Below, one piece after another: positions 14,075-50,263 of a stretch of 64,000 bases of DNA. The DNA is taken from contig NZ_JANHDH010000005.1 of NCBI RefSeq assembly GCF_026616195.1, positions 1 to 64,000 of the forward strand. The letters are read 5' to 3'. The notes beneath the pieces are model-generated. The model made no database searches and had not been told where the DNA came from. It worked only from the letters and a program-made list of their open reading frames with translations. The DNA comes from Haloarchaeobius amylolyticus. GTDB taxonomy: Archaea; Halobacteriota; Halobacteria; Halobacteriales; Natrialbaceae. The position numbers and the translations under genes are program-made. Each line of letters begins with the position of its first letter. Position 1 is the stretch's first letter.

Positions 14075-14099
14075 CTGAAACGGCCTCTCGTCGATTAGA

Positions 14100-14528: not shown

Positions 14529-14574
14529 CCCACGCTGTCGCCGGCGTTGAACAACCAACCTTCACTCACGAAGA

Positions 14575-26847: not shown

Positions 26848-28191
26848 ATGGAACGGCGGCCATCGGCAATTGATTTGTTTTGTGGAGCTGGAGGGTTCAC
26901 ACAGGGACTACTGAATGCAGGTTTCGATGTCTGCTGGGCAATTGACAGCGACACTGCTGCTGTAGAAACCTATCGACGAAATCACGGCGAGCATGTGCTC
27001 GGAAAAGATATTCGAGAGACGGATCCGGCGACGGATGGGCCAGACATTGAGCCGGGTACGCTTGACCTCGTCGCAGGTGGTCCACCGTGTCCATCGTTCT
27101 CTACTATTGGCCGGGCAAAACTTGGTTCGCTGGAAAACAGATCGACCGATGAAGACGACAGGAATGTCCTCTATCGCGACTTCCTCCGGTACGTCGACTA
27201 TTTCGAGCCAGCTGCCTTCATAATGGAGAACGTTACTGGCCTGATCAGTGATACCGCAGTCATCGAAACAGACACGATTCAGCAGTCCCTGCCAACAGAT
27301 TCTGCGTCCACTGGGGAACCGGTCGGCAAGGAAACCCCGGTCCCCGAGATCATCCTTGAGGAGATGGAAGCGCTCGGGTATCACGCTGACTGGGAAGTGA
27401 TTGACGCAGCTGACTACGGGGTTCCTCAGCATCGAGAACGGGTTTTCTTCATCGGGGCACGTGAGGGCGACATACTTCCCGACCTACAGCAGTGGAAAAC
27501 ACACCGCGAACCGACGGACGAGAGGGAACGAAAAATGGGTGTCAGGAACACTCCCGGAGCGTTCAAAGAGTCCTCTCAGACCACGTTCGATACGGAGCCA
27601 GAAGTTCCACCTATTTCCCGAGAAAACACGGCCAGACGACCGTATGTGACGGTTGCGGACGCAATCATGGATCTGCCTCCGGTCTCACCTGATGGAGAGA
27701 TGCCGCCGAAAGAAGCAACGGAATACACCCTCCCTCCGGTGTCACCATATCAGGAATGGCTACGTGATATCCCGGAAGATGAAGACTGGGACGATCAAAC
27801 GCTCCGGAACCACAGTTGTCGGTGGCACAACCATTTGGACCTCTCCATCTACAAATTGCTTGGGCACGGTGTCGGATGGAATATTGGGGACGTAAGCCAG
27901 GAGCTCCAGCCTTACCGCGATGATGTCTTCCCAGACAAGTACAAGAAACAGAACCCCTCTAGGCCAGCATCAACCATTCTGGCGCATATTCAGAAGGACG
28001 GTCACATGTTTATCCACCCCACAGAAGCACGATCGTTGACTGTCCGAGAGGCCGCGCGGTTACAGTCATTTCGTGACTCGTACTGGTTCCCCGAGAGCCG
28101 GACAAACGCGTATCGACTTGTCGGCAACGCTGTTCCACCACGGTTGGCGCACGCTGTAGGCCATGCGATTAGAGAAGAAGTTCTTGAGTGA
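26848..28191 (+). CDS. DNA (cytosine-5) methyltransferase
   Basis: A 447-residue Dcm-type enzyme that transfers methyl from SAM to cytosine C5. Motif I is DLFCGAGG (9-16); motif IV GGPPCPSFS has the nucleophile Cys81; ENV lies at 127-129. QHRERVFFIG (motif VIII) and GNAVPP (motif X) follow at the expected order, with a target-recognition region of about 130 residues between. ATG 26848 puts motif I at the N-terminus as usual, though the frame is open from GTG 26761. No restriction partner is adjacent. It is the left member of the defence island. It may protect host DNA from DISARM or the HNH protein, or act as an orphan. Confidence 0.93.
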   Translation: MERRPSAIDLFCGAGGFTQGLLNAGFDVCWAIDSDTAAVETYRRNHGEHVLGKDIRETDPATDGPDIEPGTLDLVAGGPPCPSFSTIGRAKLGSLENRSTDEDDRNVLYRDFLRYVDYFEPAAFIMENVTGLISDTAVIETDTIQQSLPTDSASTGEPVGKETPVPEIILEEMEALGYHADWEVIDAADYGVPQHRERVFFIGAREGDILPDLQQWKTHREPTDERERKMGVRNTPGAFKESSQTTFDTEPEVPPISRENTARRPYVTVADAIMDLPPVSPDGEMPPKEATEYTLPPVSPYQEWLRDIPEDEDWDDQTLRNHSCRWHNHLDLSIYKLLGHGVGWNIGDVSQELQPYRDDVFPDKYKKQNPSRPASTILAHIQKDGHMFIHPTEARSLTVREAARLQSFRDSYWFPESRTNAYRLVGNAVPPRLAHAVGHAIREEVLE

Positions 28192-32176: not shown

Positions 32177-32282
32177 TGATAGGTACGATGTGACTCTCGG
32201 ATTTAATGTCTTTGCGGATAAAAGTCGCCACAGTGCACCCGGTGTCTCGAATGACCACTCACACTCCCCCATCCCGAGAACC

Positions 32283-33329
32283 ATGAACAGGGCCTTCAGA
32301 ATTGGCGAGCGATACCGAGACAAGGGGAGCTACAGGAATCCAGACGACCAGTTCCTGCGCTGGATCCGGGGACCGCTGAGCAGTGGCATCAAAAATACGG
32401 GTGGCATTCGCGACTTAGGGACGGACCGCAGTGACACTCCCGCGGCACTGGTACTCGTCTCGAACGACAAGGGCGTCTCTCAGCACGACGACCCGTGGGA
32501 GGACACGCTTGCCGTCGATTCGGGATACATCAGCTACTGGGGCGACGCCAAGGCAGAGAACCCCTACGACGAGTCGAAACAGAACGAGAAGATCAAGGAC
32601 GCGTTCGACAGGAAAGCGTCCGGTCGGCGTGAGGAGGTCCCGCCAGTTCTTGTGTTTCGGAAACCAGAGTCCGGTGTCGTAGAGTTCTGTGGACTCTGCG
32701 TTCCCGACCATCTCGAGATCCGTTCGTATCAGGACGACTCGGGCGCACAGATTCCGAACTATTTCTTCCATTTCTCGATCCTCAACACGCAGTCAGTACC
32801 TGTTTCCTGGCTCCACGACCGTGCACGGACGAACAGTTCTGAGAACGCCCCCGAGGTGTGGAAGCAGTGGGTGCGGACCGGGGACGTCAAGCAGTGGCCG
32901 ACCGGAGAATTGCTCGACTCTGTCGGGGGGACTATCCGTCGCTACGAGCAACCGGAAGTTGTCGTGAGCGACGCGTTCAGGGCTGAAACGTTTGAGCGGT
33001 ACGGGAAGGCGTGTACGATGACCGGCATCCGAGAAGAAGCCCTGCTCGACCTGGCACACGTGTTGCCCCGGAGCCAGCGACCAGAACTCGCCGAGCATCC
33101 GGAGAACGTGTTCGTGCTAAACTCGCTCCATCACCGGGCGTTCGACGCCGGTCTATTTACCTTGGATACTGATTACAGGATACGGGTCAGTCCGACATTC
33201 GATCCCGGCCATCCGTTTCTCAGGGAAACTATAGTCGAACAACAAGGAGATCAGCTGTCATTACCACCGGGGGTCCGGTTAGGACTAGGGTTCATCGAGG
33301 ACCTGAACGCAGATCTGGGTTGGTTGTAA
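32283..33329 (+). CDS. HNH_2 endonuclease with possible SRA-like sensor domain
   Basis: A 348-residue protein. Residues about 240-300 contain an HNH_2-type nuclease: CTMTG, LAHVLPRSQ, then NVFVLNSLHHRAFDAGLFTLD. The N-terminal 130 residues (GSYRNPDDQFLRWIRGPL, PAALVLVSNDKG, SGYISYWGDAK, ESKQNEKIKDAF) have the order of elements seen in SRA/PUA-like readers attached to HNH nucleases, which bind modified cytosine. That part is my inference. If right, this is a type IV-like modification-dependent nuclease sitting between drmD and drmMI. It is divergent from drmD and convergent with the TBP gene. Confidence 0.75.
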   Translation: MNRAFRIGERYRDKGSYRNPDDQFLRWIRGPLSSGIKNTGGIRDLGTDRSDTPAALVLVSNDKGVSQHDDPWEDTLAVDSGYISYWGDAKAENPYDESKQNEKIKDAFDRKASGRREEVPPVLVFRKPESGVVEFCGLCVPDHLEIRSYQDDSGAQIPNYFFHFSILNTQSVPVSWLHDRARTNSSENAPEVWKQWVRTGDVKQWPTGELLDSVGGTIRRYEQPEVVVSDAFRAETFERYGKACTMTGIREEALLDLAHVLPRSQRPELAEHPENVFVLNSLHHRAFDAGLFTLDTDYRIRVSPTFDPGHPFLRETIVEQQGDQLSLPPGVRLGLGFIEDLNADLGWL

Positions 33330-34065: not shown

Positions 34066-37000
34066 TCAACTGTTCTTTAGTGACTCTTCAATAATAGACC
34101 GTTGGTCGTCATCAATTCCATATGCAGTATAAACCATGTCATCAATAATCTCTTCTGACTCCATTTGACGCTCTTCAAGTTTGTTGTGTTTAGATTTAGC
34201 CTGTAAAAATTGGTCCAACCCCTTCGATATGTCTTCAATCTCCGGTAGCGTTAGTTTCTCTAGGCGATCTATCAATGAGTTTGTTTTCGTCGCGGTTTCG
34301 CGAAAGCTGGCGAATCCGTTACCTTGTTCTACTGCATACGGCACAAACTCTAGAACAAGTTCTTCCACTTTGTCGTCAGCTCCCACGAACTCCAGTGCCG
34401 GGATAAAATCTGTTTCTGTGTATCCCCAACGGTCAGTCTCATAACCTTCTTTGTCCTCAGGCTTATATCGAGCTGTAACATTGAGTGATATTTTTGAGCC
34501 ATGGTCTACAATTTCACAATCGCCAATACGTAGGTTTTCTCGCTTTTCTGCTGTATCTACTAGAATCGTATCATTCACTCCAGTGGCTGGCTGGAATGAG
34601 GCTAAGTCCCCTAAACTGTCTCCCCATTGATAATTGCCCAAATAGTCCGGTAGAGAGGTGTTGATCTCTCTTTTGTTTTCAATTGTCGAGATTATATCTT
34701 CAGTCAGTGATATTAGGCCTTGCTCAAGCGAATCACTTTCATTAAGTAACTGGTGGTCAGAGGCCATCTCGATAGGCTCACTGAGCTTTTTGCCACATAT
34801 GGGTAAAATCTCAAGGTATCGTTTCGCGTAGGAGTAATACCCTCCGCGGAATCGAGAAGTTTCTTTCTTTAGTGTCCAGTCTAAAAGAGAGCTATTGAGT
34901 AACGCGAGGAGTGCCGGGTAGCTCAACTTGTCCTTATCCACAGTTATTCCATAACCGCCAGCAGTCCCGCCGCCGACGAATGTTATCAGCCCTTTCCGAT
35001 CCAGGGCTAAGGACGCTTCTTTAGCAAGGACCTGTGTGAGGAGTTTCGGAGATTCGAACTTATCTAGGTTTTGTGGCCTTCCATATTGCCACCAAGTTGT
35101 TTCATCGACACCAGAACGGTCAATCAGTCGATCGCGATTTTGAGAAAGGTATTTCCATGTCTTTGGATATTTGCTTTCCATCTCTTGTTTAGTAATAAGC
35201 GAGTACTCTCCTTTCTCAGAGTCAGTATTGTATGGGAAAATGACACGGGAATCGTATTGTGTAATAGTCCACTTTTGCATATCTTGACCCCGGAGCAGAG
35301 GCTTCGTAATCTCCTTTTCAATTTCAATTTCTTCGCCAATCTCTTTTGAATAGGCTTCTATAGTGTCCCCAGTTTCATCAATTACGTCCAGAATATAGAC
35401 CGGATCAGCACTAGTTTGTAGACCTACGAAAATAGTATCTGTGAAATCTTCCAAAACGGGGAAATCATCTAGATAGTCCAGTATTTTTCTTTCACCGGGG
35501 AGTGCGAAAACCCAAGGAGAGCTATCCAGTCGGTCGATAGATTCAGTGTATGAATACAGGTCATCGCGGATGACCTGATCCGATGACCGAACTTCCCTTA
35601 GCTGGTCAACAGTTCCGTCTAAATCCAATATTTCTGCATAACGGAAGCTCTCATTTTCTGTTTTTTGCAGAAATAGTAACACCGTGTAAGTACTAGCTCC
35701 GGGGAATACCTGTTGATCCCCAAAGTCAATTAATTCATAAACTGCCCTGTTTTTGGCGAGATACTCTCGCAAATTTTCACCATATTCACCTTGAATCCAT
35801 TTCTTTGTTTCAATAAACCCGAACAGGCCATCCTCTCGGAGAAGTTCATATCCTGCCTCAGTAAATGGAACCGCTAAATCGTAGTTCTGGTGAGTCGTGT
35901 CATAATATGTGTCAAGATATTCGGCTAACGACTTGTCTGTCTTTTTGAGATTCTGAATACGTACGTAAGGGGGATTACCGATAATAGCATCGAAGCCAGC
36001 GATTTTAGCATCGTCTCCCTCACTTGTATAGAATACCTCTGGATATTCGAGCTTCCAGTGGAAATAGTTGTGATCCTTTGCCCATTCTTGAGCATCCCCA
36101 AACCACTGCATTTGCTCAATATTTTTCCACTTTTCGTCATCCTCTAGAGCTGCTGCCATCCGCTCATACGCATCCGAGGGTAGATTGTCCAGACCGAACC
36201 TCTCTGCGGTATGAACATTTGTCATAGATTCCAGTCGTTGGCGGAGCTTGTTTTGCTCGAACTCGTCGTATTTCGCCTCCATCAGCTTGACGTCGGCGAG
36301 ATCCTGATTCTCGATAGAAACAAATTCCTGATATATATGCATAAGTTGTTCAATAGTTCCCTTCCGAGCGATTCCAAACTCGGCTAGAGTTGTGTTCCCA
36401 TCGGTACCTCCGCTCTCCGACTCTAGTTCTTCGATCTCCTCGATGTTACTCCCCACGAGAGAGTTTCCAGTCTTGAGGTGATGATCGAGGAACGCTAATG
36501 GTTGTTCGGCAGCGAGCGTCCGAAGCCATAGAGAAACCTTTGCGAGTTCCGTTGCGAGCGGGTTCAGGTCAACGCCATAGATACACCGCTGGGCAACCTT
36601 CCTCCGCGCCCAGTTGATATCCCGGAGTTCACCTTCTTCAGTCCGGGGGTCGCTAATCGCGTCGTCGTCGCCCCGCTTGACTGCCTGCTGGTCCTGCCGC
36701 TCCTGCGCGTCGATAATCTCACGGGCGAGATAGTCAACAGCGTTCACGAGGAAGTGCCCGCTCCCCATCGCCGGGTCGAGTACCTTGAGGTCGAACACAC
36801 GGTCGGCGAACTCCCCGGCAAAGCCACCCTGCTTGTATGATTCAGTCCCGACCAGATCCTCCCGGATACCGTCGACGAGTGGCCCAAGTGTCTCGTCGAC
36901 GATGTATTCGACGACGTACTCCGGCGTGTAGTAGGAACCAGTGGCCTTCCGCTCCCCAGCGTCCGTACGGAGGTACACATCACCTTCCGCAACCTCGATA

Positions 37001-38379
37001 TCGTCACCGTCGCCGGCAGGCGAGTACTCGCCGTCGTCGACCGTCAGTGGCTCGTCGGCAACGTCGAGTTTGTACTCCAGCAGTCCCTCGTAGATCGACC
37101 CGAGGTGGCGTTCGTCTAGTGAGGAGTAGTCGACGAAGACCTGGCCGTCGCCCTCGTCGGCGTCACGACGGGTCAGGAGGTCGATCACCTCTGCGAGGTG
37201 CGCGTCGTCAGCCTCGTGGCTCGCGAGGAACTGTGCCTCCGCGCTGTCGTCCGGGTCGGGGGTGGTTCGGAACAGCCCACCGTTGTAGGCCGGGATGTAG
37301 AGCTGGTCCTTCGGGATGTTCTTCCCCTGGCTTCCCTGGTCGATGAGGACGAAAAGTTCCTCGAGCCGGTCCCAGAGGTGCGTCTGGAAGGTCTGGTAGT
37401 GTTGCTGCGTCTCGTCGCGGTTGTCCGCGACCGTCTGCTTCAGCTCGTTCAGGCTGTAGCTATCACTGTAGATGTCGTTGCCAGTGGGGAGGAGGTCGCG
37501 TCCCTCACTCTCTGCGTACAGAACGAAGATGAGCCGGTACAGGTAGATGAGCGAACTGTCGTGGATCAGCGACAGGTCGTCCTCGTCGAGGTCGTCGTTC
37601 GTGTCGAGGAACCCCTCCGCGAGAACGCGGATGGCCTCGTAGATGTTGTTCTGGAGGTCTTCCCCGATCGCTTCCGCGAAGACGCTGGATTCGTCGTAGA
37701 CGTCGTCGAGGAAACAGTCTCCTGACCGGTCAGGTAGGAAGGCCTGCTGTCGGAAGAAGAGATAGAAGTCTTTGAAATCCTCGATGCCACCCTCCCCTTC
37801 GACGACCTCGAAGAGTTCGGGCAGGTCGATCTCGTAGTAGGAGTCCAGGCGGTGACTCGTCGGCCCGTAGTAGAGCCGCCACTGCTTCCCGTTCGTCAGG
37901 ACTGCCCACTGGGGTGGGGTCTCCTGAAGGTAGGCGTGAATCTGGTAGCTCGGGTTCTCGAAGTCGCGTTTCTCCTCGCCACGGGTGTCGAGCTTCCGAC
38001 CCCATCGCTTGGCGTCCGCAACGGCGATGGCCTCCTCGTAGAAGTCTTCCCGGTCGAATGCCGCGTCCGCGGCGTCTGCACTCGGGAAGAAGCCGTAGTC
38101 CGGGCGACGGGCGTTCCGCATGACCGTCTCCTCAATTTCGAACGGAATCCCGAGAATGTCGAAGACAGGGCGAATGAAATTGCGCTCCAGCTGAGCCTCG
38201 TTGTAATCCTCGACCCGGTCCTGTTTGTCTTCCCAGAGTTCGTTGATCTCGTCGTACGCTTCACGGACCTCGGCCTCGCCAACTTCCTGCCAGGGCTCTG
38301 TCTGCCGGAGATGCTCCGTGAGGTAGTGGTTGGAAAAGAGGTCCCGATTCGTGCGATAGGGGTGAGATTGCTGAGACAT
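34066..38379 (-). CDS. drmMI: DISARM DrmMI, N6-adenine DNA methyltransferase with nuclease-like N-terminus
   Basis: A 1437-residue Eco57I/type IIG-like protein. An N-terminal segment has RPDYGFF (92-98) and AVADAKRW (119-126), the PD...DxK pattern of type I/IIG nuclease domains, then WAVLTNGKQWRLYY. Methylase motif I is DPAMGSGHF (from residue 535) and the catalytic NPPY is at 802-805. Target recognition should lie in the last 600 residues. In class 1 DISARM this enzyme marks self DNA. ATG 38379 (MSQQSHPYR) is preferred over upstream starts in the GC-rich intergenic repeat. Base composition falls sharply around 36.3-36.6 kb, so the 3' half looks exchanged. Confidence 0.9.
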   Translation of the reverse strand: MSQQSHPYRTNRDLFSNHYLTEHLRQTEPWQEVGEAEVREAYDEINELWEDKQDRVEDYNEAQLERNFIRPVFDILGIPFEIEETVMRNARRPDYGFFPSADAADAAFDREDFYEEAIAVADAKRWGRKLDTRGEEKRDFENPSYQIHAYLQETPPQWAVLTNGKQWRLYYGPTSHRLDSYYEIDLPELFEVVEGEGGIEDFKDFYLFFRQQAFLPDRSGDCFLDDVYDESSVFAEAIGEDLQNNIYEAIRVLAEGFLDTNDDLDEDDLSLIHDSSLIYLYRLIFVLYAESEGRDLLPTGNDIYSDSYSLNELKQTVADNRDETQQHYQTFQTHLWDRLEELFVLIDQGSQGKNIPKDQLYIPAYNGGLFRTTPDPDDSAEAQFLASHEADDAHLAEVIDLLTRRDADEGDGQVFVDYSSLDERHLGSIYEGLLEYKLDVADEPLTVDDGEYSPAGDGDDIEVAEGDVYLRTDAGERKATGSYYTPEYVVEYIVDETLGPLVDGIREDLVGTESYKQGGFAGEFADRVFDLKVLDPAMGSGHFLVNAVDYLAREIIDAQERQDQQAVKRGDDDAISDPRTEEGELRDINWARRKVAQRCIYGVDLNPLATELAKVSLWLRTLAAEQPLAFLDHHLKTGNSLVGSNIEEIEELESESGGTDGNTTLAEFGIARKGTIEQLMHIYQEFVSIENQDLADVKLMEAKYDEFEQNKLRQRLESMTNVHTAERFGLDNLPSDAYERMAAALEDDEKWKNIEQMQWFGDAQEWAKDHNYFHWKLEYPEVFYTSEGDDAKIAGFDAIIGNPPYVRIQNLKKTDKSLAEYLDTYYDTTHQNYDLAVPFTEAGYELLREDGLFGFIETKKWIQGEYGENLREYLAKNRAVYELIDFGDQQVFPGASTYTVLLFLQKTENESFRYAEILDLDGTVDQLREVRSSDQVIRDDLYSYTESIDRLDSSPWVFALPGERKILDYLDDFPVLEDFTDTIFVGLQTSADPVYILDVIDETGDTIEAYSKEIGEEIEIEKEITKPLLRGQDMQKWTITQYDSRVIFPYNTDSEKGEYSLITKQEMESKYPKTWKYLSQNRDRLIDRSGVDETTWWQYGRPQNLDKFESPKLLTQVLAKEASLALDRKGLITFVGGGTAGGYGITVDKDKLSYPALLALLNSSLLDWTLKKETSRFRGGYYSYAKRYLEILPICGKKLSEPIEMASDHQLLNESDSLEQGLISLTEDIISTIENKREINTSLPDYLGNYQWGDSLGDLASFQPATGVNDTILVDTAEKRENLRIGDCEIVDHGSKISLNVTARYKPEDKEGYETDRWGYTETDFIPALEFVGADDKVEELVLEFVPYAVEQGNGFASFRETATKTNSLIDRLEKLTLPEIEDISKGLDQFLQAKSKHNKLEERQMESEEIIDDMVYTAYGIDDDQRSIIEESLKNS

Positions 38380-38509
38380 GTGTGCTGAACTGATGGCGTC
38401 ATGGCGTCGCCATCTGTGAATATTCAGACAGGCACATTCCTGCCCTATAACAGTTAGTGAAAAACGGGTGTCGAACGAATTTGACTCTGGCTCTCCCGCG
38501 TGTGCGCTC

Positions 38510-38527
38510 GCGCGTTGCGCAACGCGC
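38510..38527. repeat. 18-bp GC palindrome between drmMI and drmA
   Basis: GCGCGTTGCGCAACGCGC is a perfect palindrome in a run of CpG-rich sequence (38500-38550), between the divergent drmMI and drmA genes. Confidence 0.7.
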
Positions 38528-38559
38528 ACGCGCAGCGCGAACGCGCACGTCGCTAAAAT

Positions 38560-38652: not shown

Positions 38653-41600
38653 ATGACAGGGTCCGAGCCAGATCCGGACGCCGGCCCTCCGGACGACGAA
38701 GAACGCATCGCACGACACCTCCGAAAACGCATCACTGACCGGGTGAGCGGCAATCTCGAGGGCGAGGACGCTCGGGTCAAGCGGGACGCCCCGAGCGACA
38801 AATTCTTCGCCGGAGCACTGGCCCCGGAGGGGAACAGCGACCTCGAGGACAGCGACGACGACCTCCAGTCGAAGATGGAGCCCAGCGCCATCGGTACCAT
38901 GACCCGCATCCGAAACGGGTCCGCGGGTGACACGATCTCCATCGACATCACGGGGAGCGTGTGGGTGCGCGTGAACCCGACCTACGAGGAGATGGACCGA
39001 CGCGAGGAGTACGTCTCGCTGGCCGACCGCGACGACGACGAGACCGAGAACACCACGCTCCTCCCCGTCTTCGAACGCCTCGAACTGGAGGTGCCGTCGA
39101 TCGAGGTACCCTACGAGGCCATCGCGGGTGGAACCCGAACAACGCCGGAAGTCGTTCGGGAACGCGCCTCCGAGGCGATTCGGGCAGCCGTCGACGACGC
39201 TCGCGAGCGAGCTGTGGCACGCGACGACATCTACCTCGACAACGGCGACGACAAGCCCGACGAAGACGTCCCGAACTACGTCCTCGAGAACGAGACCGCG
39301 TTCAACGACTACCTCGCGGAGCGGGACGGGACGCCGGCGATACCGGACTGGGACCTGTCCGTTCAGGTCACCACCACCGAGGACCGTGAGAGCAACGGTG
39401 GCGAACTCCTGCTCGACATCGAGGTCACGAACACGGGCCGGCAGTCGAAGCGAGACTACGTCTACACGCTCCGCGACCCGACGCTGTTCGAGGTTCAGCT
39501 CGACCTGCAAGCGAACGGCGACGTAGAGTTCACGCCGTTCACCTTCGACCCGCTTCCCGAGGACTTCCGCTACAACCGGGACCTGTGGGGACACGGACGG
39601 AACTGCACCATCAACGCTCCCGGCTACAAGGAGACCCTCGGTGATGCGACGCCCGGGCGATCCGCCCCTCGTGCGGACCCGCACACGGACCACCTCCGGA
39701 CGGACTTCATCCCCGAGTACCGCCAGCTCGTCTACGAGTCCGCTGATCGAGGCGTGAAACCCGCGTTCAGCGAACTCGCGGATCTTCAGGGTGGCGGATA
39801 CGAGGTGCTGGAGTCGGTCGCGGACGCCATGGACGAGTACCTCGAAACCGCCTACCCGGAAGCCCTCCGGGAATACAGCAAGCGGGGCGACTGGACGGAC
39901 GCCGACCGCGAGGACTTCGAGGAGGACAAGGCTGCGTTCGAGCGCGAGATCACCCGGTTCCGACGTGGCATCCGCGTGCTTCGCGAGCACCCGGACACGG
40001 TCGGGCGCGCGTTCGAACTGATGAACGAGTCGATGGACCGGATGCACGACTTCAACACGTGGCGACTGTTCCAGCTCGTGTTCATCGTCATGCTCGTCCC
40101 CGACATCGCGGGCCGCGAGTACGAGGAATGGGACGAGATCAGCTGGCGTGACGAGGAGGAGCTCTCAGAGCGGTTCGAGGAGGCCGAGGGCGCCCTCGAC
40201 GTCGTCGACGTGCTCTGGTTCCCGACGGGCGGCGGGAAGTCCGAGGCCTTCTTCGGTGTTGCGGTCTGGAACATGTTCTTCGACCGCATCCGCGGCAAGC
40301 ACTTCGGGGTGACGACGTGGACACGGTTCCCACTCCGACTTTTGTCGCTCCAGCAACTCCAGCGGATGTCGGAGACCATCATGTACGCCGATCTCGTTCG
40401 GCGTGACCAGGACGACATCGGGAGCCGCCCGTCCCGTCCGTTCAGTGTCGGGTTCCTCGTCGGCAAGAAGAACACCCCGAACGCGCTCACGGGCTACAAC
40501 AACGACAACTTCACGCGCTACAAGCAGGACGAGAAGCTCCGGGAGGAGTCGAAAGTCGTTCCGAGCTGCCCGGCCTGTGGTGCCCGGGTCAAGATGCGCG
40601 TCACTGAAGAGGACCACCGCCTCGCGCACGTCTGCACCGGGACCCCGTTCGAGTGTGACTGGCAGAAGCGCGAGACCACGGCCCAGGAGGTCTACGCGGA
40701 AGACGAACTCCCGATCCACGTCGTCGACAACGAACTCTACCGTTACGCGCCGAGCATCCTCGCCGGGACCATCGACAAGATCACCGCGGTCGGGTACCAG
40801 CGGAAGATGGCGCACATCCTGACCGGAGAGATGGAGTACGAGTGCCCGACGCACGGCTTCGCCAGTCTCGGTGAGTGTACGGAGAAGTACGGCTGTGACA
40901 TCGACAAGAACGAGTTCGAGTTGATGGCGTCGCCGATAGACGTGTACGACCCGGCACCATCCCTGATGGTTCCCGACGAACTCCACCTCCTCGAAGAGAG
41001 CGTGGGGAGTTTCGACGGCCACTACGAGACGGGCGTCCAGACGCTCCAGGAGATAGTCGACGCCGGGAAGACGAAGATACTCGCTCCCACGGCGACGATC
41101 ACGGCCTACGAGGACCAGGTGTACCACCTGTTCCTTCGGCCCGCAGAGCGCTTCCCGTCGCCGGGGCCATTCCTGCGCGAGAACTTCTACGCGATGGAGC
41201 AGCCCGAGACACAGCGCTACTACATGGGGCTCATCCCGCACGGGAAGACGCACATCAACTCCATCATCGACGTCCTGTTCACCTTCCACGAGGAAGTCCA
41301 GGACCTCCTCAGGGTGGCGATGGAGTCCCCCGAGGACCTCCTTACGGGCGTCGCTCTGGAGGGGACTGACACCAGTGAGGCCCTGTCAGCAGACTCCATC
41401 TCGGAGATCATCGACATCCTCACGCTCTACAGCACGAGCCTGACGTACCTGCTGTCGAAGAAAGATGGAGACCGTCTGGACCAGTCGTTCGTCAGCCAGC
41501 TGAACGCGTACTTCCGTGGGGAAGGTCGCCCACCGCTCAACTCCGAGCGCATGACCGGTGGGACGCCCTTCGAGGAGGTCCAGACCATCCTGGACCAGCT

Positions 41601-42456
41601 CGACGACCCGTGGCAGGAGGACGAAGACGAGTCCCTCCTGCACAGCCTCGCCGACGACGACCTCGTCGACGAGGAGGACATCCCGGACATCATGGAACTC
41701 CGTGATGTGCTCGCGGCGGAGCTCGACGATGACAGAACTCCGCGGACGGAGTTCCGGGTTGCTCTTCGTGCGGCGTCCCCCGAAGTCCGAGAAGGACTCG
41801 CGTGGCTACTCGCGTATCGTCCGAATACGGTGACGGCTACCAGCATGATCAGCCACGGGGTGGACGTGGAGCGGTTCAACATGATGGTGTTCTTCGGAAT
41901 GCCACGCGCCACGGCCGAGTACATCCAGTCGAGCTCCCGCGCTGGGCGGTCCCACCCCGGACTCGTCTTCAACATCCTTCACCCCATCCGGGAGCGCGAC
42001 CTGAGCCACTACCACTTCTTCGAGAAATACCACCAGTTCCTCGACCGACTCGTCGAACCAGTCTCTGTCAACCGGTGGGCGAAGAACAGCGTCAAGCGGA
42101 CGCAGCCGGGGCTGTTCATGGCACTCCTGCTCAACCACTACATGTACACCGACGACGGGGAGATGATGTACTTCGGTGACCGGGCCGAAGAGTTCCTCTC
42201 GACGGTCGACGACGTCGACCTCGAGAACCTCCTCGTGGACATGTACGGTGGGTCGGAGGTCCCACCGGAGTTCAGCGACGACGTGAGGCAGCTCACCCGC
42301 AGTGCGATCTCCGAGGTCCAGTTGAGTGACCGTCAGTGGACGAGCGAACGCCTCCCCGGGTCTCCGATGCGGAGCCTCCGTGACGTCGACGCACAGCTCC
42401 CGATCGATCCGGAGTGGAAGTACAAGGACATCCTCAGCACCTACAACAACCGATAA
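38653..42456 (+). CDS. drmA: DISARM DrmA helicase
   Basis: A 1267-residue superfamily 2 helicase. Walker A PTGGGK is at 524-529 and the DEAD-type motif DELH at 775-778. The helicase C-terminal part contains ISHGVDVERFNMMVFFGMPR and YIQSSSRAGRSHPG, highly typical of DrmA. A cysteine cluster around residues 638-675 (CPACG...C...C) may bind zinc. DrmA with DrmB forms the DNA-engaging core of DISARM, which blocks entry or integration of phage DNA. The gene is GC-rich and starts 31 bases after a TATA-like box. drmB begins 2 bases after its stop, indicating translational coupling. Confidence 0.93.
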   Translation: MTGSEPDPDAGPPDDEERIARHLRKRITDRVSGNLEGEDARVKRDAPSDKFFAGALAPEGNSDLEDSDDDLQSKMEPSAIGTMTRIRNGSAGDTISIDITGSVWVRVNPTYEEMDRREEYVSLADRDDDETENTTLLPVFERLELEVPSIEVPYEAIAGGTRTTPEVVRERASEAIRAAVDDARERAVARDDIYLDNGDDKPDEDVPNYVLENETAFNDYLAERDGTPAIPDWDLSVQVTTTEDRESNGGELLLDIEVTNTGRQSKRDYVYTLRDPTLFEVQLDLQANGDVEFTPFTFDPLPEDFRYNRDLWGHGRNCTINAPGYKETLGDATPGRSAPRADPHTDHLRTDFIPEYRQLVYESADRGVKPAFSELADLQGGGYEVLESVADAMDEYLETAYPEALREYSKRGDWTDADREDFEEDKAAFEREITRFRRGIRVLREHPDTVGRAFELMNESMDRMHDFNTWRLFQLVFIVMLVPDIAGREYEEWDEISWRDEEELSERFEEAEGALDVVDVLWFPTGGGKSEAFFGVAVWNMFFDRIRGKHFGVTTWTRFPLRLLSLQQLQRMSETIMYADLVRRDQDDIGSRPSRPFSVGFLVGKKNTPNALTGYNNDNFTRYKQDEKLREESKVVPSCPACGARVKMRVTEEDHRLAHVCTGTPFECDWQKRETTAQEVYAEDELPIHVVDNELYRYAPSILAGTIDKITAVGYQRKMAHILTGEMEYECPTHGFASLGECTEKYGCDIDKNEFELMASPIDVYDPAPSLMVPDELHLLEESVGSFDGHYETGVQTLQEIVDAGKTKILAPTATITAYEDQVYHLFLRPAERFPSPGPFLRENFYAMEQPETQRYYMGLIPHGKTHINSIIDVLFTFHEEVQDLLRVAMESPEDLLTGVALEGTDTSEALSADSISEIIDILTLYSTSLTYLLSKKDGDRLDQSFVSQLNAYFRGEGRPPLNSERMTGGTPFEEVQTILDQLDDPWQEDEDESLLHSLADDDLVDEEDIPDIMELRDVLAAELDDDRTPRTEFRVALRAASPEVREGLAWLLAYRPNTVTATSMISHGVDVERFNMMVFFGMPRATAEYIQSSSRAGRSHPGLVFNILHPIRERDLSHYHFFEKYHQFLDRLVEPVSVNRWAKNSVKRTQPGLFMALLLNHYMYTDDGEMMYFGDRAEEFLSTVDDVDLENLLVDMYGGSEVPPEFSDDVRQLTRSAISEVQLSDRQWTSERLPGSPMRSLRDVDAQLPIDPEWKYKDILSTYNNR

Positions 42457-42458
42457 CA

Positions 42459-44417
42459 ATGTCAATGGAACGTAGCAAGTCGCAGGTACTCTACCAGTTC
42501 CTGCCCGAGAACACGTTCGACTACAGCGGTCAGCGGGGCATCTGGAAGACTACGCGACTTGAAACGAGCGATGCGAGTGGTACCGTCAGCAAAGACTACA
42601 TCCTCGGTCGCGTCCTCGCACGCGTCCGAAACTGGGACGGGGGCCAGAATGGCTTCGTCTCGAACAACACCGACCACTACCACTTCGGCGTACCCGAAGG
42701 TGTCCGGGCCGAGCCGTTCCCCACGACCTACGAGTGCCAGAAGTGCGACAAAGCGCACGGGTACTACACTGCGGACGAGGTCAAGAACAACAACCCTGAT
42801 CTCACCTGTGAGCGATCCGGCTGTGACGGGAACCTCGAACAGTACCAGTTCGTGAGTGTTCACACGTGCGGGGAGATTCGTCGCCTCTACCCACAGAAGT
42901 GCCCAACTCACGGAGACCAGCACGTCATACTCAACCGCCGAAACAGTCAGCGTGTCCGGAACTTCCACTGGAGCTGCAATGTCAGTGGCTGTTCGTGGGA
43001 GACTCCCATCCGAAACTACCAGAACTGCAACTGTGATTACAGGGCTCCCGAAGCGGAGGAGAACGACGGGATGTACACGACGGTCCACCGGGCAGGGAGT
43101 GTCTTCTACCCGCACTACCTCTCCACGGTGAACCTGCACACCGCAGGCATCGGGCACCTCAGGAACTCCGAGGACGGAGCAAAGAGGGCGATCGCGAAGC
43201 TGTTCGGACTGTCCGATGCTGACTCCCTCCAGGACGTCAGCCTGCACCAGCGAACCGGAGAGGTGGAGGTGGACGACGAGAAGGTGGTGGAGATCTACAC
43301 CACACACGACGACATCACCACGCTCGACCAGGCGCGCGAGTACCTCCGTGAACAGGGGACGCTGGAGAGCCAGACCATCCTCGAGCGTCTCGGCGAGACA
43401 CTCGCACTCGATGCAGACGGCGAAACGTCCGAGCTCACCGAGGCGGGTGACGAGATTCTCCAGTACGTCCTCAGCCGCGAGTCGCTCACGACGGATACGC
43501 TGGACGAACTCGAATCGGACGCCCGGGACCGTGGCTTCTCCGACAAAGCAGACCGCATCAACAGCTACCACGACGACCTGGAGGCGCTCGGATTCGACGA
43601 CGTCCGCGTCATCGAGGACTTCCCCGTGCAGACGTTCGTCTACGGGTACACCCGTGGCAGCCGTGAGGAAGGAGAAGCGCGTATCAACGCGTTCTCACAG
43701 AGCGCGAGTGACGGGGACGGGACGCCGATTTTCGTCGACACGTCCGAGACAGAGGCGGTTCAGTTCGACCTAGACCCCGCACAGGTCCTACTGTGGCTCG
43801 CGCTCAACATCCCCGGGACGAGCGACCCGAGCGCGGTGAACGGAGACATCGTTCTCCCTGAGGTCAGCAGCCGTGACGACGCCGCGCTCGAGCACGCGAG
43901 AAGTGAAATCGAATCGCTCTCCACCGATGAGCAGTGGGCGTTCCTGCTCAACCACCTCGCGCCGGTCGAACGGTACGGCAAGTTCCAGACGGACCTCGAC
44001 GACTCGGTCGAGGAACAGGTCACGGAGCACGTGTTCCAGCTGGTCCACACGCTGAGTCACATCCTGCTGAAGCAGGCCAGTACCATCAGTGGGTTCGACC
44101 GCACGAACCTCAGCGAGTTCCTCTTCCCGCGCGCGCTATCTGTCGTCATCTACGCGAATAACCGGGAGGAATTCAACATCGGTGGGATGCACACGATGGT
44201 CGAACAGCAACTAGATAACCTCCTCGGACAGGCCGAAACGCACGGCAACGAGTGTGTGTACGACCCGGTCTGCTCACAGCGCGGTGGGGCGTGTCTCTCC
44301 TGCCTGCACGTGAGTGAGATCAGCTGTTCGTACTTCAACCAGGTCCTCTCCCGGGACTTCCTGTTCGGGAGCCGACCGAACACTGACAAGGACATCGCCG
44401 GATACTGGACACTGTAA
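42459..44417 (+). CDS. drmB: DISARM DrmB (DUF1998 protein)
   Basis: A 652-residue protein. Two zinc-binding-like regions lie early (CQKCDKAHGY...C...C and CGEIRRLYPQKCPTHG). The C-terminal 150 residues have the DUF1998 signature: HTLSHILLKQASTISGF, FPRALSVVIYANN, then a cysteine-rich end (CVYDPVC...CLSCLH...C). DrmB binds DrmA and is thought to form with it the sensing complex. It follows drmA by 2 bases and is followed by drmC after 43 bases on the same strand. ATG 42459 is chosen from the coupling to drmA. Confidence 0.93.
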   Translation: MSMERSKSQVLYQFLPENTFDYSGQRGIWKTTRLETSDASGTVSKDYILGRVLARVRNWDGGQNGFVSNNTDHYHFGVPEGVRAEPFPTTYECQKCDKAHGYYTADEVKNNNPDLTCERSGCDGNLEQYQFVSVHTCGEIRRLYPQKCPTHGDQHVILNRRNSQRVRNFHWSCNVSGCSWETPIRNYQNCNCDYRAPEAEENDGMYTTVHRAGSVFYPHYLSTVNLHTAGIGHLRNSEDGAKRAIAKLFGLSDADSLQDVSLHQRTGEVEVDDEKVVEIYTTHDDITTLDQAREYLREQGTLESQTILERLGETLALDADGETSELTEAGDEILQYVLSRESLTTDTLDELESDARDRGFSDKADRINSYHDDLEALGFDDVRVIEDFPVQTFVYGYTRGSREEGEARINAFSQSASDGDGTPIFVDTSETEAVQFDLDPAQVLLWLALNIPGTSDPSAVNGDIVLPEVSSRDDAALEHARSEIESLSTDEQWAFLLNHLAPVERYGKFQTDLDDSVEEQVTEHVFQLVHTLSHILLKQASTISGFDRTNLSEFLFPRALSVVIYANNREEFNIGGMHTMVEQQLDNLLGQAETHGNECVYDPVCSQRGGACLSCLHVSEISCSYFNQVLSRDFLFGSRPNTDKDIAGYWTL

Positions 44418-44460: not shown

Positions 44461-45405
44461 ATGAACGACGACGAATCAGAATCGACGTGGTTGCCCCTTG
44501 CTATTGCTGAGTACGTCGATCGTGACGAACAACTCCTCTCCCAGCTCGAAGGCCTGTTAGTCCTATCCGGTGGCCGTGATGAACTGGTAACACCTGCGGA
44601 GATTGCGAACGGAACAGATGTCTCCGTTGCCGCAACGACCGACGTATTTCGACAGCTCTCACAGACTGACGCGGTCACTCGCGAGTCGTTCAGAACGAGT
44701 GTCGAGGACAGTTCCTACCGGATCAACGTAGAAGCGTGCCGGAAGGTATTCGAGACAGCCAGGCACGCTGCACGCAGCGTCAACGCATACGAAGCCCGTC
44801 AACCACCAGCGACAGAGGCAACACCGCTGGTGACGTTCCCCGCGGATCCTGCCTTCGAGGAGGTGAGCCCGACATCGTTCGGGATGTCGTGGCTGATGCC
44901 AACTCTCACGCGGCAGATCAAGAGAAGCGAGACATCAATCACGCTGGTCGCACCGTTCTTTGAAAAAGACGGATTCGCACATCTCGAAGATGTGCTGCTC
45001 TCGGCCATGGAGCGAGGTGTGCGGGTGCGGGTGATTTCTCGGTATCTCACCGACACGGACTCGTACAACTACTCGGTACTGAAGTCATTCGCGGAGAGAG
45101 CGGATGAGCGAAACATCGACCGATCGCTCCTCAGGTGCGTGGACTATACTCGCTGGAGTCGTGGGACACCGCCGGCACAGCGTCGTCAAGATGGAGCTAC
45201 CCCTGCGTTCACACTCCATGCTAAGATCATGCTCTTCGACGATACAGCAGCGTACGTGGGGAGTGCGAACGTAACGGACTACGGATTTGAGCACTACCTC
45301 GAGACCGGTGTGCTCCTCGAAGGTCCACCCGTTGAGGGATTCGTTGACTTGGTGGAGTTTCTGCTCAACTCGGAGGCTGCGACAATAGTCTCATTGATTG
45401 ATTAG
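44461..45405 (+). CDS. drmC: DISARM DrmC, phospholipase D-like protein
   Basis: A 314-residue protein. The N-terminal third looks like a winged helix (TPAEIANGTDVSVAATTDVF). The C-terminal part carries one PLD-type HKD motif: HAKIMLFDD from His253, then VGSANVTDYG. In other DISARM systems drmC is a PLD nuclease-like gene that is dispensable for some activity. It is the last gene of the drmABC operon. An AT-rich TTTATATAC at 44444-44452 is too close to the ATG to be a normal promoter for it. Confidence 0.9.
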   Translation: MNDDESESTWLPLAIAEYVDRDEQLLSQLEGLLVLSGGRDELVTPAEIANGTDVSVAATTDVFRQLSQTDAVTRESFRTSVEDSSYRINVEACRKVFETARHAARSVNAYEARQPPATEATPLVTFPADPAFEEVSPTSFGMSWLMPTLTRQIKRSETSITLVAPFFEKDGFAHLEDVLLSAMERGVRVRVISRYLTDTDSYNYSVLKSFAERADERNIDRSLLRCVDYTRWSRGTPPAQRRQDGATPAFTLHAKIMLFDDTAAYVGSANVTDYGFEHYLETGVLLEGPPVEGFVDLVEFLLNSEAATIVSLID

Positions 45406-46376: not shown

Positions 46377-46434
46377 ATGACGAAGTCATCAGGTAGCAAT
46401 AAAGTATTTCTCACTGTTAATACAGTATGACACA

Positions 46435-47019
46435 ATGACAGACCCTGGGCCTGAGGAGCCGACAGGACGGGTAATGAAATTCATCCACGAGGGAGAATCA
46501 AAATTACCGGTACGGGATATCAAAGCGAACTACAAAAGTAGCACAGCAAAAGAACCGTATATCGAATACGGACTGGATAGAGGATTGGATGAGGGAGTAA
46601 TAATTGGGGCGGAGAATTACTGGGCTTGCTGTTATCAAAACGCTGTTGAGAAAGTGGTTGAACTTGATCAAGAGTACTTATTCCTAGCATCATACCCCCA
46701 CCATGCTGGAGGAGACGCGACTGAAAACGTTATTGTTGGTTATATTCGACATGAAGATCATGAATGGAGAACCGGAGATCGTGTTGCCGTCATTGGTGAA
46801 ATGAAACTGTATCCGTTTGAGCACGGCATCCCTCCGAGTGAGTTCGATTACAAACCAACGAAATGGTCTCTTGGTCCATATGGGCGAAATTTGAATGCCT
46901 CTCAAACGCAGGAAGTTATCGAGCATTTCAGCCAATTTCCAGATGTTACAGAAGAATGCCTAGAGCGAACGTTGGAACTTAAGCGTGAGAGCGGTTCCGG
47001 TGGGAATAGTAAGTGCTGA
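46435..47019 (+). CDS. Unrecognised protein paired with Nmad3-like gene
   Basis: A 194-residue protein of no family I know. Its middle, LFLASYPHHAGGDATENVIVGYIRHEDHEWRTG (read in two pieces around 80-112), parallels in order the VLAFYTGLA...HRYIIGYFTV segment of the divergent neighbour, so the two may share a small-molecule or base-binding fold. AT-rich like that neighbour. It ends with a charged helix and a C-terminal cysteine. Possibly a modified-base reader; this is speculative. Confidence 0.55.
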   Translation: MTDPGPEEPTGRVMKFIHEGESKLPVRDIKANYKSSTAKEPYIEYGLDRGLDEGVIIGAENYWACCYQNAVEKVVELDQEYLFLASYPHHAGGDATENVIVGYIRHEDHEWRTGDRVAVIGEMKLYPFEHGIPPSEFDYKPTKWSLGPYGRNLNASQTQEVIEHFSQFPDVTEECLERTLELKRESGSGGNSKC

Positions 47020-47065: not shown

Positions 47066-47845
47066 TCAAGACCAGTATTCCTTGAAGTAGGTGCAACTAG
47101 GAGCGAGGGAGCAACTGGGACATTCCGGGTTGTCATTCGTACAGATGAGGGCACCGAGGTCTAACAACGCCAAATTGAATGCTCGAGCGAGTGCCGGGTC
47201 CGACGGAACGAGCGCGTCAAGAAGGCGATAGACACGGGTGCTCTTGTGCGGCTGCGCCGGTAGGGGATAATCGAAGACACGGCCGGTAATCCTCGCAGTG
47301 TTGGTATCGACCAGTGCCAGCGGTTCGTCGAACGCAAATAGCAAACAAGCACGGGCGGTGTAGGGTCCTACTCTCCACGGTCGCTGGAGAGCCTGAAGGT
47401 CTTCTGGCACCTCACCGTCATACTCTGCACAGAGTTCCGCCGCTTCACGAAGGGTCCTGACCCGATGATTTGCGAATCCGAGAGGACGAACGGTATTCTC
47501 GAGTTCTATCTCCTCTGCGGTGATGACCTCCTGGGGGTCAGGGAAACAGTCGAAGAAATCAGCATAGAGATCGGCGACTGCATCACTTCGGGTTCGCTGA
47601 AGCAGTATCTCAGTCGCATAGATGTGCCATGAATCGGTAGCCAACCGCCACGGATATTCTCGCCCGTACTCTTCGAGCCACTCCAGAAGGGGAGGAATCG
47701 CCTGTATGAATGATTCAACTGCGTTGTCTGCATTCGGCACGTCAGCTGATGCCAGCTCCTTACTGGCGGTTTTCCTGTCGATGTATTCGTGTAGTTCGTC
47801 AACTGTGACCTGCGTACGTCCGAACGGGAGATCAACAGTTGTCAT
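47066..47845 (-). CDS. Mig-like HhH-GPD mismatch (T/G) DNA glycosylase
   Basis: A 259-residue HhH-GPD glycosylase. REYPWR leads into TEILLQRT (78-85), VGPYTA (159-164) has Tyr162 where endonuclease III has its catalytic lysine, and LVDTN has Asp180, the conserved aspartate. The end has an iron-sulphur loop C-x6-C-x2-C-x5-C (235, 242, 245, 251). EILLQRT and the Tyr/Asp pair fit Mig, the thymine glycosylase encoded beside a C5 methylase on a Methanothermobacter plasmid, better than MutY. It should remove thymine from T/G pairs made by deamination of 5-methylcytosine. It is divergent from the fused methylase gene, 174 bases away. Confidence 0.85.
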   Translation of the reverse strand: MTTVDLPFGRTQVTVDELHEYIDRKTASKELASADVPNADNAVESFIQAIPPLLEWLEEYGREYPWRLATDSWHIYATEILLQRTRSDAVADLYADFFDCFPDPQEVITAEEIELENTVRPLGFANHRVRTLREAAELCAEYDGEVPEDLQALQRPWRVGPYTARACLLFAFDEPLALVDTNTARITGRVFDYPLPAQPHKSTRVYRLLDALVPSDPALARAFNLALLDLGALICTNDNPECPSCSLAPSCTYFKEYWS

Positions 47846-48019
47846 TGTTCAATCTACGGATAGCCTACGCTTTAGAGAAGCGGTCCGCGAATCAATTTCT
47901 GTACTGCTATCCTGAGAGAGCTGTCATCAGCCGCGCTCAAGATGTGTCCCACCGGTTGCCTGAATTTCTGGAACCGCATGACCAGGAAGTTTAAATCATT
48001 CCACGGAGAAAAGGTGCTT

Positions 48020-50263
48020 ATGTCCGGACCGGCCACTTCTTGCGGTTCTCCATCCGAGCAGGTACGTTCGGCTCCAGAAGCCGAACGCAGACTGCATAAA
48101 CAGATACTTCTGGATAATATTGATTTCCTCATAGACACCCTGACTGCGGAGCACGTTCGGCGTCAACAGCATCCTCCTGCCGGCTGCCCTCGTGCTACGC
48201 CTGAAAACATCGCTCGAAATCAGTCAAAAACCGGTGACCCCTGCCAGTATCACGCCATTCAGAGGAGGGGTAACGAGTCAGACAAAGAGTGTCCGTGTGG
48301 CGACCCGCTGGTTGACAGCGACGATCCGCTTGATACCGTTGCTACGGTAGTCCTCGGGAAGCAGGCGATCTCTCCTTCAGAACGGTTCTTCGACCGAGTC
48401 CCGAGACGGACAGTGGCCAACCTCCGCGAGAGCCACGGGACCTGGGAAAACATCGCAACGCTGGATCAGGAAGACCTGCATGAGGCCGTCCGTGCTGCAA
48501 GTCCTCGGAAGGGAGTGAGCACGAAACGGATCGAGTGCTTGCAGTCACTGCTGGAGGCTGTGACGGAGACACACTATACAGAGGGTACAACACTTCGTGG
48601 GTTCTCAAGAGTCCAGTACTCCACCTATGTCAAATTCCTCCAAACTATTCCAGGCGTCGAAGAGCAGGACGCTTGGTGGATCGTTCAGACCGCATTTGAC
48701 AAGCCGGTCTGGCCCGCCGATCCGCTGATTGACGAGCTGCTGGTCTCGCTGGGTTTGCTTGACCCCGCTTCTTCGCTGGATTCCACCGGGCGTCACACCG
48801 ATTTAGAGGACGAGCTGATCGATCGTCAGATTCCAGTCCTGTACCGTGCGCTTGCAACCCACGCTGTCAATTCGGATGCTGGTAACTGTGGTGAAAACTG
48901 TGAAATTCGGAAGTTCTTGCTAACATACCGGCTTGAGGAACAGCGAAAAGAGCGTGAGGGCCCCGTTGTCGTCGACCTGTTCGCCGGAGCAGGAGGACTG
49001 TCACACGGTCTTTCTCAAGCAGGATATGATGTCCGCTGGGCGATTGATATCGAGCCCGATGCGGTTGCGACATACCGCCTGAACCATCCGGAGATTCCAC
49101 ACCAGAATGTAGTCTGTGGCGACGTGAGAGAGATCGATATCGCTGCGGAGGTTCGGAATGCTGCGCCCGACCCGGACGTTATTGTGGGAGGGCCCCCCTG
49201 TCAGTCCCTCTCTCAGGCAGGCTACCGGTCTCGTCGAGCGAAAGACGACGACTATAGCGTGCTTGACGACGACCGGACGAACCTGTACACAAAGTATGTC
49301 GAGGCTGTCGACGAGCTTCGTCCGAAGGCCATCGTGATGGAGAACGTGGAAGGGATGGTCAACAAGGTCGGAGATACGGATGTACGCGTAATCGACTGGA
49401 TAATCGAGGACCTGAAAGCTCTTGATAAGAACGGAGAAGGGTACCAGGTCGGGTTCCGCCTTCAGGACATGACTGAGCTCGGAATTCCGCAGGAACGTGA
49501 ACGTGTGCTGCTCATCGGAATTCGGAACGATCTCGTCGTCAGTGAAAACGAGGTAGAGGACCTGCTGGATAGTCTCAAAAGCACGGATTGTGACCGGACC
49601 ATCCGACAGGGTCTGTCCGGACTTCCACGTCTACGTCGTGGAGAAGGCGGGCGAGTCCTGGCCGAGACTGGCCGAGGGTCGAAAAGCCAGTACGTGAAGC
49701 AGAACAGACTCCATGAGGGGACCGAACTCTGCTTCAATCACCAGGCACGCGAACACCCGATGGAAAAAGACAGAATCCTGTTCGATGAAGGGCTACAGCC
49801 GGGAGACACCGGATGGGATGTCAAGTACGACTCTGATGGCGAGTATGCCGAATATATCGAGTACGACGTCGGAACCGCCGACAATCCTCGCTTTCGGGAC
49901 AAATATCGGAAGCTCGAATGGTCGAAACCCTCACCGACAATAGTCGCTCACCTCGCCAAGGACGCGAATGGGTTTGTACTACCCGACTACTACGAACACG
50001 CCCGTCCGGACCGTGAACATGCAGACCCTAGACGAAACCGAGGAATTACCCCTCGAGAGGCAGCGAGATTGCAATCGTTCCCGGACCACTATATCTTCCT
50101 CGGGCCGTTTACCAGCTGGTTCCGTCAGATCGGGAATGCAGTCCCTCCTGTCGCAGGAAAAATTATCGGTACTGCTCTGTGGGCCGTATTTTCTGATGAG
50201 ATTGATGAGACCGCTCCCACAGCTGAACAGCATCCGGCTGCGGAAATTGCATCCGATGACTGA
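48020..50263 (+). CDS. HhH-GPD glycosylase-like domain fused to DNA cytosine-5 methyltransferase
   Basis: A 747-residue protein. Residues about 100-300 have a HhH-GPD layout: DTVATVVLGKQAIS, the hairpin LQTIPGVEEQDAWWIV (207-222) and PADPLIDELLVSLGLL with Asp234/Asp238. The lysine of endonuclease III is absent, and the canonical four-cysteine cluster is not seen, although CPC (91-93) and C-x3-C (290-294) remain. Residues 316 to the end are a complete C5 methylase: DLFAGAGG, GGPPCQS with Cys394, MENVEG, QERERVLLIG and GNAVPP. A TTTAAAT box at 47990-47996 supports leaderless ATG 48020. The first domain may guide or repair the same sites; it may lack activity. Confidence 0.85.
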   Translation: MSGPATSCGSPSEQVRSAPEAERRLHKQILLDNIDFLIDTLTAEHVRRQQHPPAGCPRATPENIARNQSKTGDPCQYHAIQRRGNESDKECPCGDPLVDSDDPLDTVATVVLGKQAISPSERFFDRVPRRTVANLRESHGTWENIATLDQEDLHEAVRAASPRKGVSTKRIECLQSLLEAVTETHYTEGTTLRGFSRVQYSTYVKFLQTIPGVEEQDAWWIVQTAFDKPVWPADPLIDELLVSLGLLDPASSLDSTGRHTDLEDELIDRQIPVLYRALATHAVNSDAGNCGENCEIRKFLLTYRLEEQRKEREGPVVVDLFAGAGGLSHGLSQAGYDVRWAIDIEPDAVATYRLNHPEIPHQNVVCGDVREIDIAAEVRNAAPDPDVIVGGPPCQSLSQAGYRSRRAKDDDYSVLDDDRTNLYTKYVEAVDELRPKAIVMENVEGMVNKVGDTDVRVIDWIIEDLKALDKNGEGYQVGFRLQDMTELGIPQERERVLLIGIRNDLVVSENEVEDLLDSLKSTDCDRTIRQGLSGLPRLRRGEGGRVLAETGRGSKSQYVKQNRLHEGTELCFNHQAREHPMEKDRILFDEGLQPGDTGWDVKYDSDGEYAEYIEYDVGTADNPRFRDKYRKLEWSKPSPTIVAHLAKDANGFVLPDYYEHARPDREHADPRRNRGITPREAARLQSFPDHYIFLGPFTSWFRQIGNAVPPVAGKIIGTALWAVFSDEIDETAPTAEQHPAAEIASDD

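Follow-up and report, generated by a model that had tools for sequence, protein, structure and literature searches.

Can a single protein both mark DNA with 5-methylcytosine (5mC) and repair the mutations to which this base gives rise? The question is raised by a 64,000-nucleotide (nt) stretch of Haloarchaeobius amylolyticus DNA (contig NZ_JANHDH010000005.1, positions 1-64,000; hereafter the window, whose coordinates are used throughout), in which a gene for a Mig-type mismatch DNA glycosylase lies divergent from a gene that joins an N-terminal HhH-GPD-like domain to a C5 methylase. A first-pass annotation had described this pair and proposed that the fusion would unite the two tasks in a single polypeptide. 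The description holds: both open reading frames (ORFs) are intact and lie on opposite strands, and the HhH-GPD-like domain is recovered by profile, hhalign and Foldseek comparisons. Neither of the outcomes that the annotation had named as refutations, another N-terminal fold or a MutY-like A/G specificity of the neighbor, turned up. The proposed coupling within one protein is not supported, given that the fused domain belongs to the endonuclease III (EndoIII) rather than the Mig lineage and that most of the residues needed for catalysis are gone from it.

The explanation that we consider probable, with appreciable room for doubt, places the pair in a DISARM defense island. The target of the methylase domain would be one fixed motif, probably CCWGG. 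The fused domain, itself non-catalytic, would help the enzyme to engage its sites and, together with a CCWGG element in the promoter, would let it limit its own expression. The 5mC that it makes would deaminate to T, and the divergent Mig would remove T from the resulting T:G mismatches. Repair is thus probably done by the neighboring Mig and not by the fused domain, so that marking and repair would be coupled by the pairing of two genes rather than inside one protein.

Architecture of the fusion

The domain pair recurs: a survey of 392 Halobacteriales genomes recovered the fusion in 19. In the window its ORF opens at 47942, which gives 773 residues (the numbering used here), yet translation most likely starts at 48020, because Met27 is invariant in the 19 sequences and the 26 extra codons overlap conserved TATA-like and CCWGG elements. 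The N-terminal element carries four conserved cysteines (C82, C101 and C119 invariant, C117 present in 18 of 19) that would form a metal site. At the other end, the Pfam DNA_methylase model (PF00145) covers residues 343-745 (5e-59), and motifs I, IV (PCQ), VI (ENV), VIII (QxRxR) and X are invariant in all members. Among PADLOC models, the generic MTase_II scores higher (273 bits) than DrmMII (225 bits).

Pfam detects no HhH-GPD match in the fused domain of any of the 19 members, and the domain is therefore revealed only by profile and fold comparison. Its profile matches Deinococcus radiodurans EndoIII-1 (2e-5), and hhalign aligns it to haloarchaeal EndoIII-like proteins with a probability of 97.5% (8e-12). 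An AlphaFold model of the domain (pLDDT 77, pTM 0.76) was matched to EndoIII by Foldseek with a probability of 1.00 and a target TM (template modeling) score of ~0.6; no other fold emerged. An origin from Mig was considered and rejected, since hhalign gives 1.3% for Mig against 97.5% for the EndoIII-like proteins. By profile and model, then, the fused domain is an HhH-GPD fold of EndoIII lineage.

A CCWGG element at the fusion promoter

The palindromic motif CCWGG occurs within 50 nt of the fusion start in 18 of the 19 loci, where local frequency predicts 1.23. In 16 loci it sits at -37 to -39, usually directly upstream of a TATA-like element, and two divergent members have it at -18 and -10; the middle base is A in some loci and T in others. 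An AT-rich, TTTA-type element stands at the TATA-like place in nearly all fusion relatives. The motif is rare or absent in control upstream regions (Mig 0/8, DrmB 0/8, DrmC 1/8, DrmA 3/12), and was not seen upstream of the second, un-fused C5 methylase of the island. The element was spotted before it was tested; of three held-out loci, two contain it (DL31 and Halarchaeum CBA1220, but not G743).

The EcoRII methylase, which recognizes CCWGG, carries a fused repressor domain through which it shuts down its own gene once methylation of its sites has taken place (PMC12707154). This analogy suggests that the fusion methylates CCWGG, and likewise that it regulates its own expression through the promoter copy. 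The same data could be read differently: the Cys-rich and HhH-GPD-like N-terminus might be chiefly an operator-binding repressor of the divergent Mig and methylase promoters, with CCWGG as its operator. The near-universal element, its usual place beside the TATA-like sequence, its scarcity at control genes, and the precedents of the EcoRII, SsoII and Ecl18kI methylases (PMC12707154, PMC3978073) all speak for such a regulatory methylase. We nevertheless hold it to be unlikely, since the known repressor extensions are helix-turn-helix (HTH) domains whereas this N-terminus has an HhH-GPD fold, and since the motif is retained in loci without Mig, so that it would serve the fusion gene rather than the pair.

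Decay of the fused glycosylase domain

The position of the catalytic Lys/Tyr, residue 242, takes nine different residue types in the 19 fusions and is never K or Y (Q, Q, G, D, D, D, D, A, G, D, S, S, S, D, S, T, E, R and H). Asp260 of the GPD loop is kept in 16 members and replaced by G, N and S in the other three; the second glycine of the hairpin is mostly lost, and so is the iron-sulfur (Fe-S) loop, of which no more than two cysteines remain and in some members none. The cleft-side motifs FDKPVWP and WW, by comparison, are strongly conserved, and closer pairs give the domain a ratio of nonsynonymous to synonymous substitution (dN/dS) of 0.07-0.13, which either resembles or slightly exceeds the value for the methylase domain. 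Because purifying selection maintains the fold while the catalytic positions are free to change, the domain is most likely a pseudo-glycosylase that serves as a non-catalytic DNA- or partner-binding module, and it would be catalytically inactive.

Some HhH glycosylases work without the catalytic Lys. An active, monofunctional, Asp-only enzyme, with one protein that both methylates and repairs, would accordingly be compatible with the HhH-GPD fold, with the Asp260 retained in most members, and with conserved FDKPVWP and WW motifs, as expected of a working pocket. That reading strikes us as improbable: the Lys/Tyr position is unconstrained, the Asp itself is dispensed with in three members, little remains of the Fe-S cysteines or of the second glycine of the hairpin, and many of these loci have a separate, intact Mig as the neighboring gene. 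A more specific role for the non-catalytic module is also conceivable, although we would give it little weight: the repurposed glycosylase pocket would sense whether a target site is hemimethylated, fully methylated or, once deaminated, a T:G mismatch, and would steer methylation, self-repression or the recruitment of Mig accordingly. If this were true, a reader would have evolved from a base-excision enzyme within an anti-viral island.

The divergent Mig and its methylase partners

By profile and residue comparison, the neighbor is a Mig-type glycosylase, as the first-pass annotation had recognized from an intact Fe-S loop and a Tyr/Asp active site. Its ORF (47066-47845) matches Pfam HhH-GPD (8e-14), and its Fe-S loop reads C235-x6-C242-x2-C245-x5-C251, with all four cysteines invariant in the eight sequences aligned. 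A profile of the enzyme and seven orthologues found 1KEA (Mig.Mth) as its best match in the PDB (1.4e-47), the best MutY scoring 1.6e-39. E79, Y162 and D180, which correspond to Glu42, Tyr126 and Asp144 of Mig.Mth, are invariant across an alignment of 17 relatives, which also keep the four Fe-S cysteines. Tyr by itself does not identify a Mig, because some MutY enzymes carry it too; the positions said to tell the two apart are 47, 50 and 187 (PMC2714593), and all 17 relatives have Arg at 47, Ser, Gly or Ala at 50, and Leu or Phe at 187. These residues match T:G mismatch specificity, and the window enzyme would be expected to excise T from such mismatches.

C5 methylases have Mig as their partner again and again. 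It is present, intact or broken, in 12 of the 19 fusion genomes: in eight it is intact and divergent from the fusion, in one (G191) an intact copy lies 16 kb away, and in three it is broken by an insertion (G079), by a stop codon (G172) or by reduction to a fragment (G159). At one locus, L036, the fusion is intact and the Mig gene is interrupted by an insertion of ~1.8 kb (13057-14886). Eight further genomes have the same Mig family divergent from an un-fused C5 methylase, which brings the divergent pairs to 16 loci in all and argues that the fused domain is not needed for repair. Migs linked to the fusion and those linked to plain methylases form two groups in a tree, with moderate support. 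At the plain-methylase loci, the three flanking proteins scanned match restriction enzymes (BsaWI, 4.6e-9, above the cut-off; EcoRII-C and XcyI, under theirs). Small EVE-like proteins (weak Pfam match, 0.011) are encoded directly downstream of Mig at two un-fused-methylase loci (L088, 9082-9531; L095, 10307-10729).

Membership in a defense island invites the view that Mig is itself a DISARM effector, a restriction glycosylase that attacks foreign DNA instead of repairing the host's; base-excision restriction enzymes exist (PMC10273834), and the PADLOC model that matches Mig is labeled type II nicking endonuclease. We judge this very improbable, because the residues fit T:G mismatch specificity, the same family is paired with un-fused methylases beside restriction-enzyme-like genes, and Mig is missing or broken in many islands whose DISARM genes are otherwise intact. 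That the neighbor is a MutY-like A:G glycosylase lying beside methylases incidentally is hardly credible: despite a score of 134 bits with the NCBIfam MutY model and the Tyr shared with some MutY enzymes (PMC2714593), that score falls under the 286.5 cut-off, 1KEA outscores the best MutY by 26 bits, Val45 and Gln182 of MutY are exchanged as in Mig.Mth, the MutY C-terminal domain is absent, and the gene is divergent from a C5 methylase at 16 loci.

The DISARM setting

By gene content, the haloarchaeal island around the pair is a DISARM island, and it includes two C5 methylases (Table 1). DrmA and DrmB, the DISARM core, are both present, and the island also holds the further DISARM components DrmC and a DrmMI/DrmMII methylase, along with a DrmD/BrxHII-like helicase that scores 416 bits with NCBIfam DISARM_DrmD, under that model's 610 cut-off. 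The fusion and the un-fused enzyme are the only two C5 methylases of the whole genome.

Table 1. Coordinates of the Mig/fusion pair, its promoter elements and the surrounding DISARM genes in the window
Feature	Position	Strand	Evidence
Second C5 methyltransferase, un-fused, DrmMII-like	26848..28191	+	NCBIfam and PADLOC models
SNF2 helicase, DrmD/BrxHII-like	29234..32323	-	PADLOC BrxHII 553, DrmD 367
DrmMI/PglX-like adenine methyltransferase	34066..38529	-	PADLOC DrmMI 363 bits; NCBIfam BREX PglX under cut-off
DrmA helicase (DISARM)	38653..42456	+	PADLOC DrmA 497 bits
DrmB, DUF1998-type (DISARM)	42462..44417	+	PADLOC DrmB 173 bits; NCBIfam DrmB_fam 69 bits, under cut-off
DrmC-like phospholipase D nuclease	44461..45405	+	Pfam PLDc_2 6e-14; PADLOC DrmC 53 bits
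Predicted Mig-type T:G (U:G) mismatch DNA glycosylase, 259 amino acids, divergent from fusion	47066..47845	-	Profile, residue comparison
CCAGG (CCWGG) element, 38 nt upstream of fusion start	47982..47986	.	CCWGG counts at 19 loci
TATA-box-like TTTAAAT, 24-30 nt upstream of 48020	47990..47996	+	Comparison with relatives
Fusion gene: Cys-rich N-terminus, EndoIII-derived HhH-GPD-like domain and C5 methyltransferase, 747 amino acids	48020..50263	+	
N-terminal element, four conserved Cys	48083..48301	+	C82, C101, C117, C119 (773-residue numbering)
HhH-GPD-fold domain, predicted catalytically degenerate	48302..48943	+	Q242 at Lys position, Asp260, hairpin PGVEEQDAWW, no four-Cys Fe-S loop
C5 methyltransferase domain, catalytic motifs intact	48944..50260	+	Pfam PF00145 5e-59; PADLOC; invariant motifs

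The association with DISARM extends across the survey. DrmB occurs in 48 of the 392 genomes, and 18 of the 19 fusion genomes have it in the same island as the fusion (Fisher p 3e-17, a value too small because the genomes are phylogenetically related); the one fusion genome without DrmB is G154. Among DrmB-bearing genomes, Mig is found in 12 of 18 with the fusion and in 1 of 30 without it (p 3e-6, too small for the same reason). Searches beyond this survey gave matches only within the haloarchaea: a genome scan (nine loci) and plasmids (three) were all haloarchaeal, a phylum-wide sample yielded only Halobacteriales matches, and no relative was found among the viruses of IMG/VR, each within the limited sensitivity of the scans. 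The DL31 and Halarchaeum plasmids bear the fusion under the plain annotation cytosine methyltransferase, and the DL31 gene call begins inside the HhH-GPD-like domain.

Several other genes of the island are worth recording. The same island that would make 5mC encodes, at 32400-33329 (+), a protein with an AspBHI N-terminal domain (7e-36), which we take to be a modified-cytosine reader, and an HNH nuclease; a homologue adjoins a truncated Mig in L097. Between drmC and Mig (45513-47019) lie a gene for Nmad3 (nucleotide modification associated) and, divergent, an ORF of 194 residues, homologues of which recur side by side in L044 (18237-19561). A gene for a TATA-binding protein (TBP) at 33388-33939 (-) encodes a product 37% identical to the genome's own TBP, and TBP-like ORFs are found in other DISARM islands (L045, 13883-14431; L048, 629-1177 and 1740-2291). 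Beside the second C5 methylase, an ORF at 28205-28978 (-) has a CBS domain and a weak Swt1-like HEPN match. ORFs near the fusion give weak matches to GHKL-type (HATPase_c) ATPases in L043 (11972-14704) and L036 (7361-8380). L043 has both the fusion and a second C5 methylase, and DISARM genes were not found in the flanking stretches fetched for it.

Points that weigh against the proposed explanation

Several observations count against the explanation set out above. Mig is missing from seven of the 19 fusion genomes and broken in three more, and must therefore be dispensable; the relatedness of the genomes inflates both Fisher tests. Retention of Asp260 in 16 of 19 members is compatible with monofunctional glycosylase activity, and a crenarchaeal HhH-GPD protein that lacks this Asp is still active (PMC11754123). 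Depletion of CCWGG was considered as a footprint of methylation and rejected, since the motif is under-represented to a similar degree whether or not a locus has the fusion. CCWGG may also have nothing to do with the methylation target and act as an operator instead, and the Dcm model covers only the catalytic half of the fusion methylase. Finally, the arrangement of the domains in a full-length model was discarded, its pLDDT of 61 being too poor.

Comparison with known systems

The glycosylase-methylase fusion appears to be undescribed so far. We found no published description of it or of Mig in DISARM, a provisional result given that subscription literature lay mostly outside the search, and no biochemistry for these haloarchaeal proteins in the literature. 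The portions searched of a YprA-family survey (PMC12458937), an archaeal restriction-modification survey (PMC10609329) and a glycosylase-domain review (PMC9266487) do not mention the fusion.

Three elements go beyond the first-pass annotation, namely the DISARM setting, the CCWGG at the promoter, and the fact that Mig is paired in other genomes with methylases that lack the fusion. The window offers one defense island that both makes 5mC and carries an apparent repair enzyme for the resulting mutations. It also offers a methylase that gained a new module by taking in a decayed repair enzyme, in which selection has held a DNA glycosylase fold after the loss of most catalytic residues. For a DISARM-linked methylase, CCWGG is a target motif that can be tested, and so can the self-control of a methylase in archaea.

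The window island shares with DISARM its DrmA, DrmB, DrmC, adenine methylase, SNF2 helicase and C5 methylase; it adds a C5 methylase with an EndoIII-derived domain and a predicted T:G glycosylase, neither of which was found in the DISARM literature searched. Like Mig.Mth (Mig.MthI), which is linked to a C5 methylase on a Methanothermobacter plasmid, the window glycosylase has an HhH-GPD domain with an Fe-S cluster loop, the Tyr/Asp pair, and the pocket of Arg47, a small residue at 50 and Leu187. It differs in its hairpin (PWRVGPY, not LPGVGKY), in an N-terminal extension of ~40-50 residues, in lying inside a DISARM island, and in a partner methylase that bears a fused domain. That domain has its fold and sequence lineage in common with D. 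radiodurans EndoIII-1 (DR2438 type) and haloarchaeal EndoIII-like proteins; unlike them, it has lost the catalytic Lys and, for the most part, the second glycine of the hairpin as well as the Fe-S cysteines; it is joined to a C5 methylase, and an extra Cys-rich element is present. The EcoRII, SsoII and Ecl18kI methylases resemble the fusion in having an N-terminal extension on a C5 methylase and a recognition-like site (here CCWGG) at their own promoter, whereas the extension of the fusion has an HhH-GPD fold and no HTH repressor domain; repression by the fusion and its CCWGG specificity are putative. Lastly, the window pair recalls Dcm-Vsr of Escherichia coli, in which a C5 methylase is likewise matched with a T:G repair enzyme, possibly at the same CCWGG motif; the window pair has a glycosylase in place of the Vsr endonuclease and is part of a defense island, and if CCWGG is indeed the target, Mig would perhaps be the archaeal counterpart of Vsr beside Dcm.

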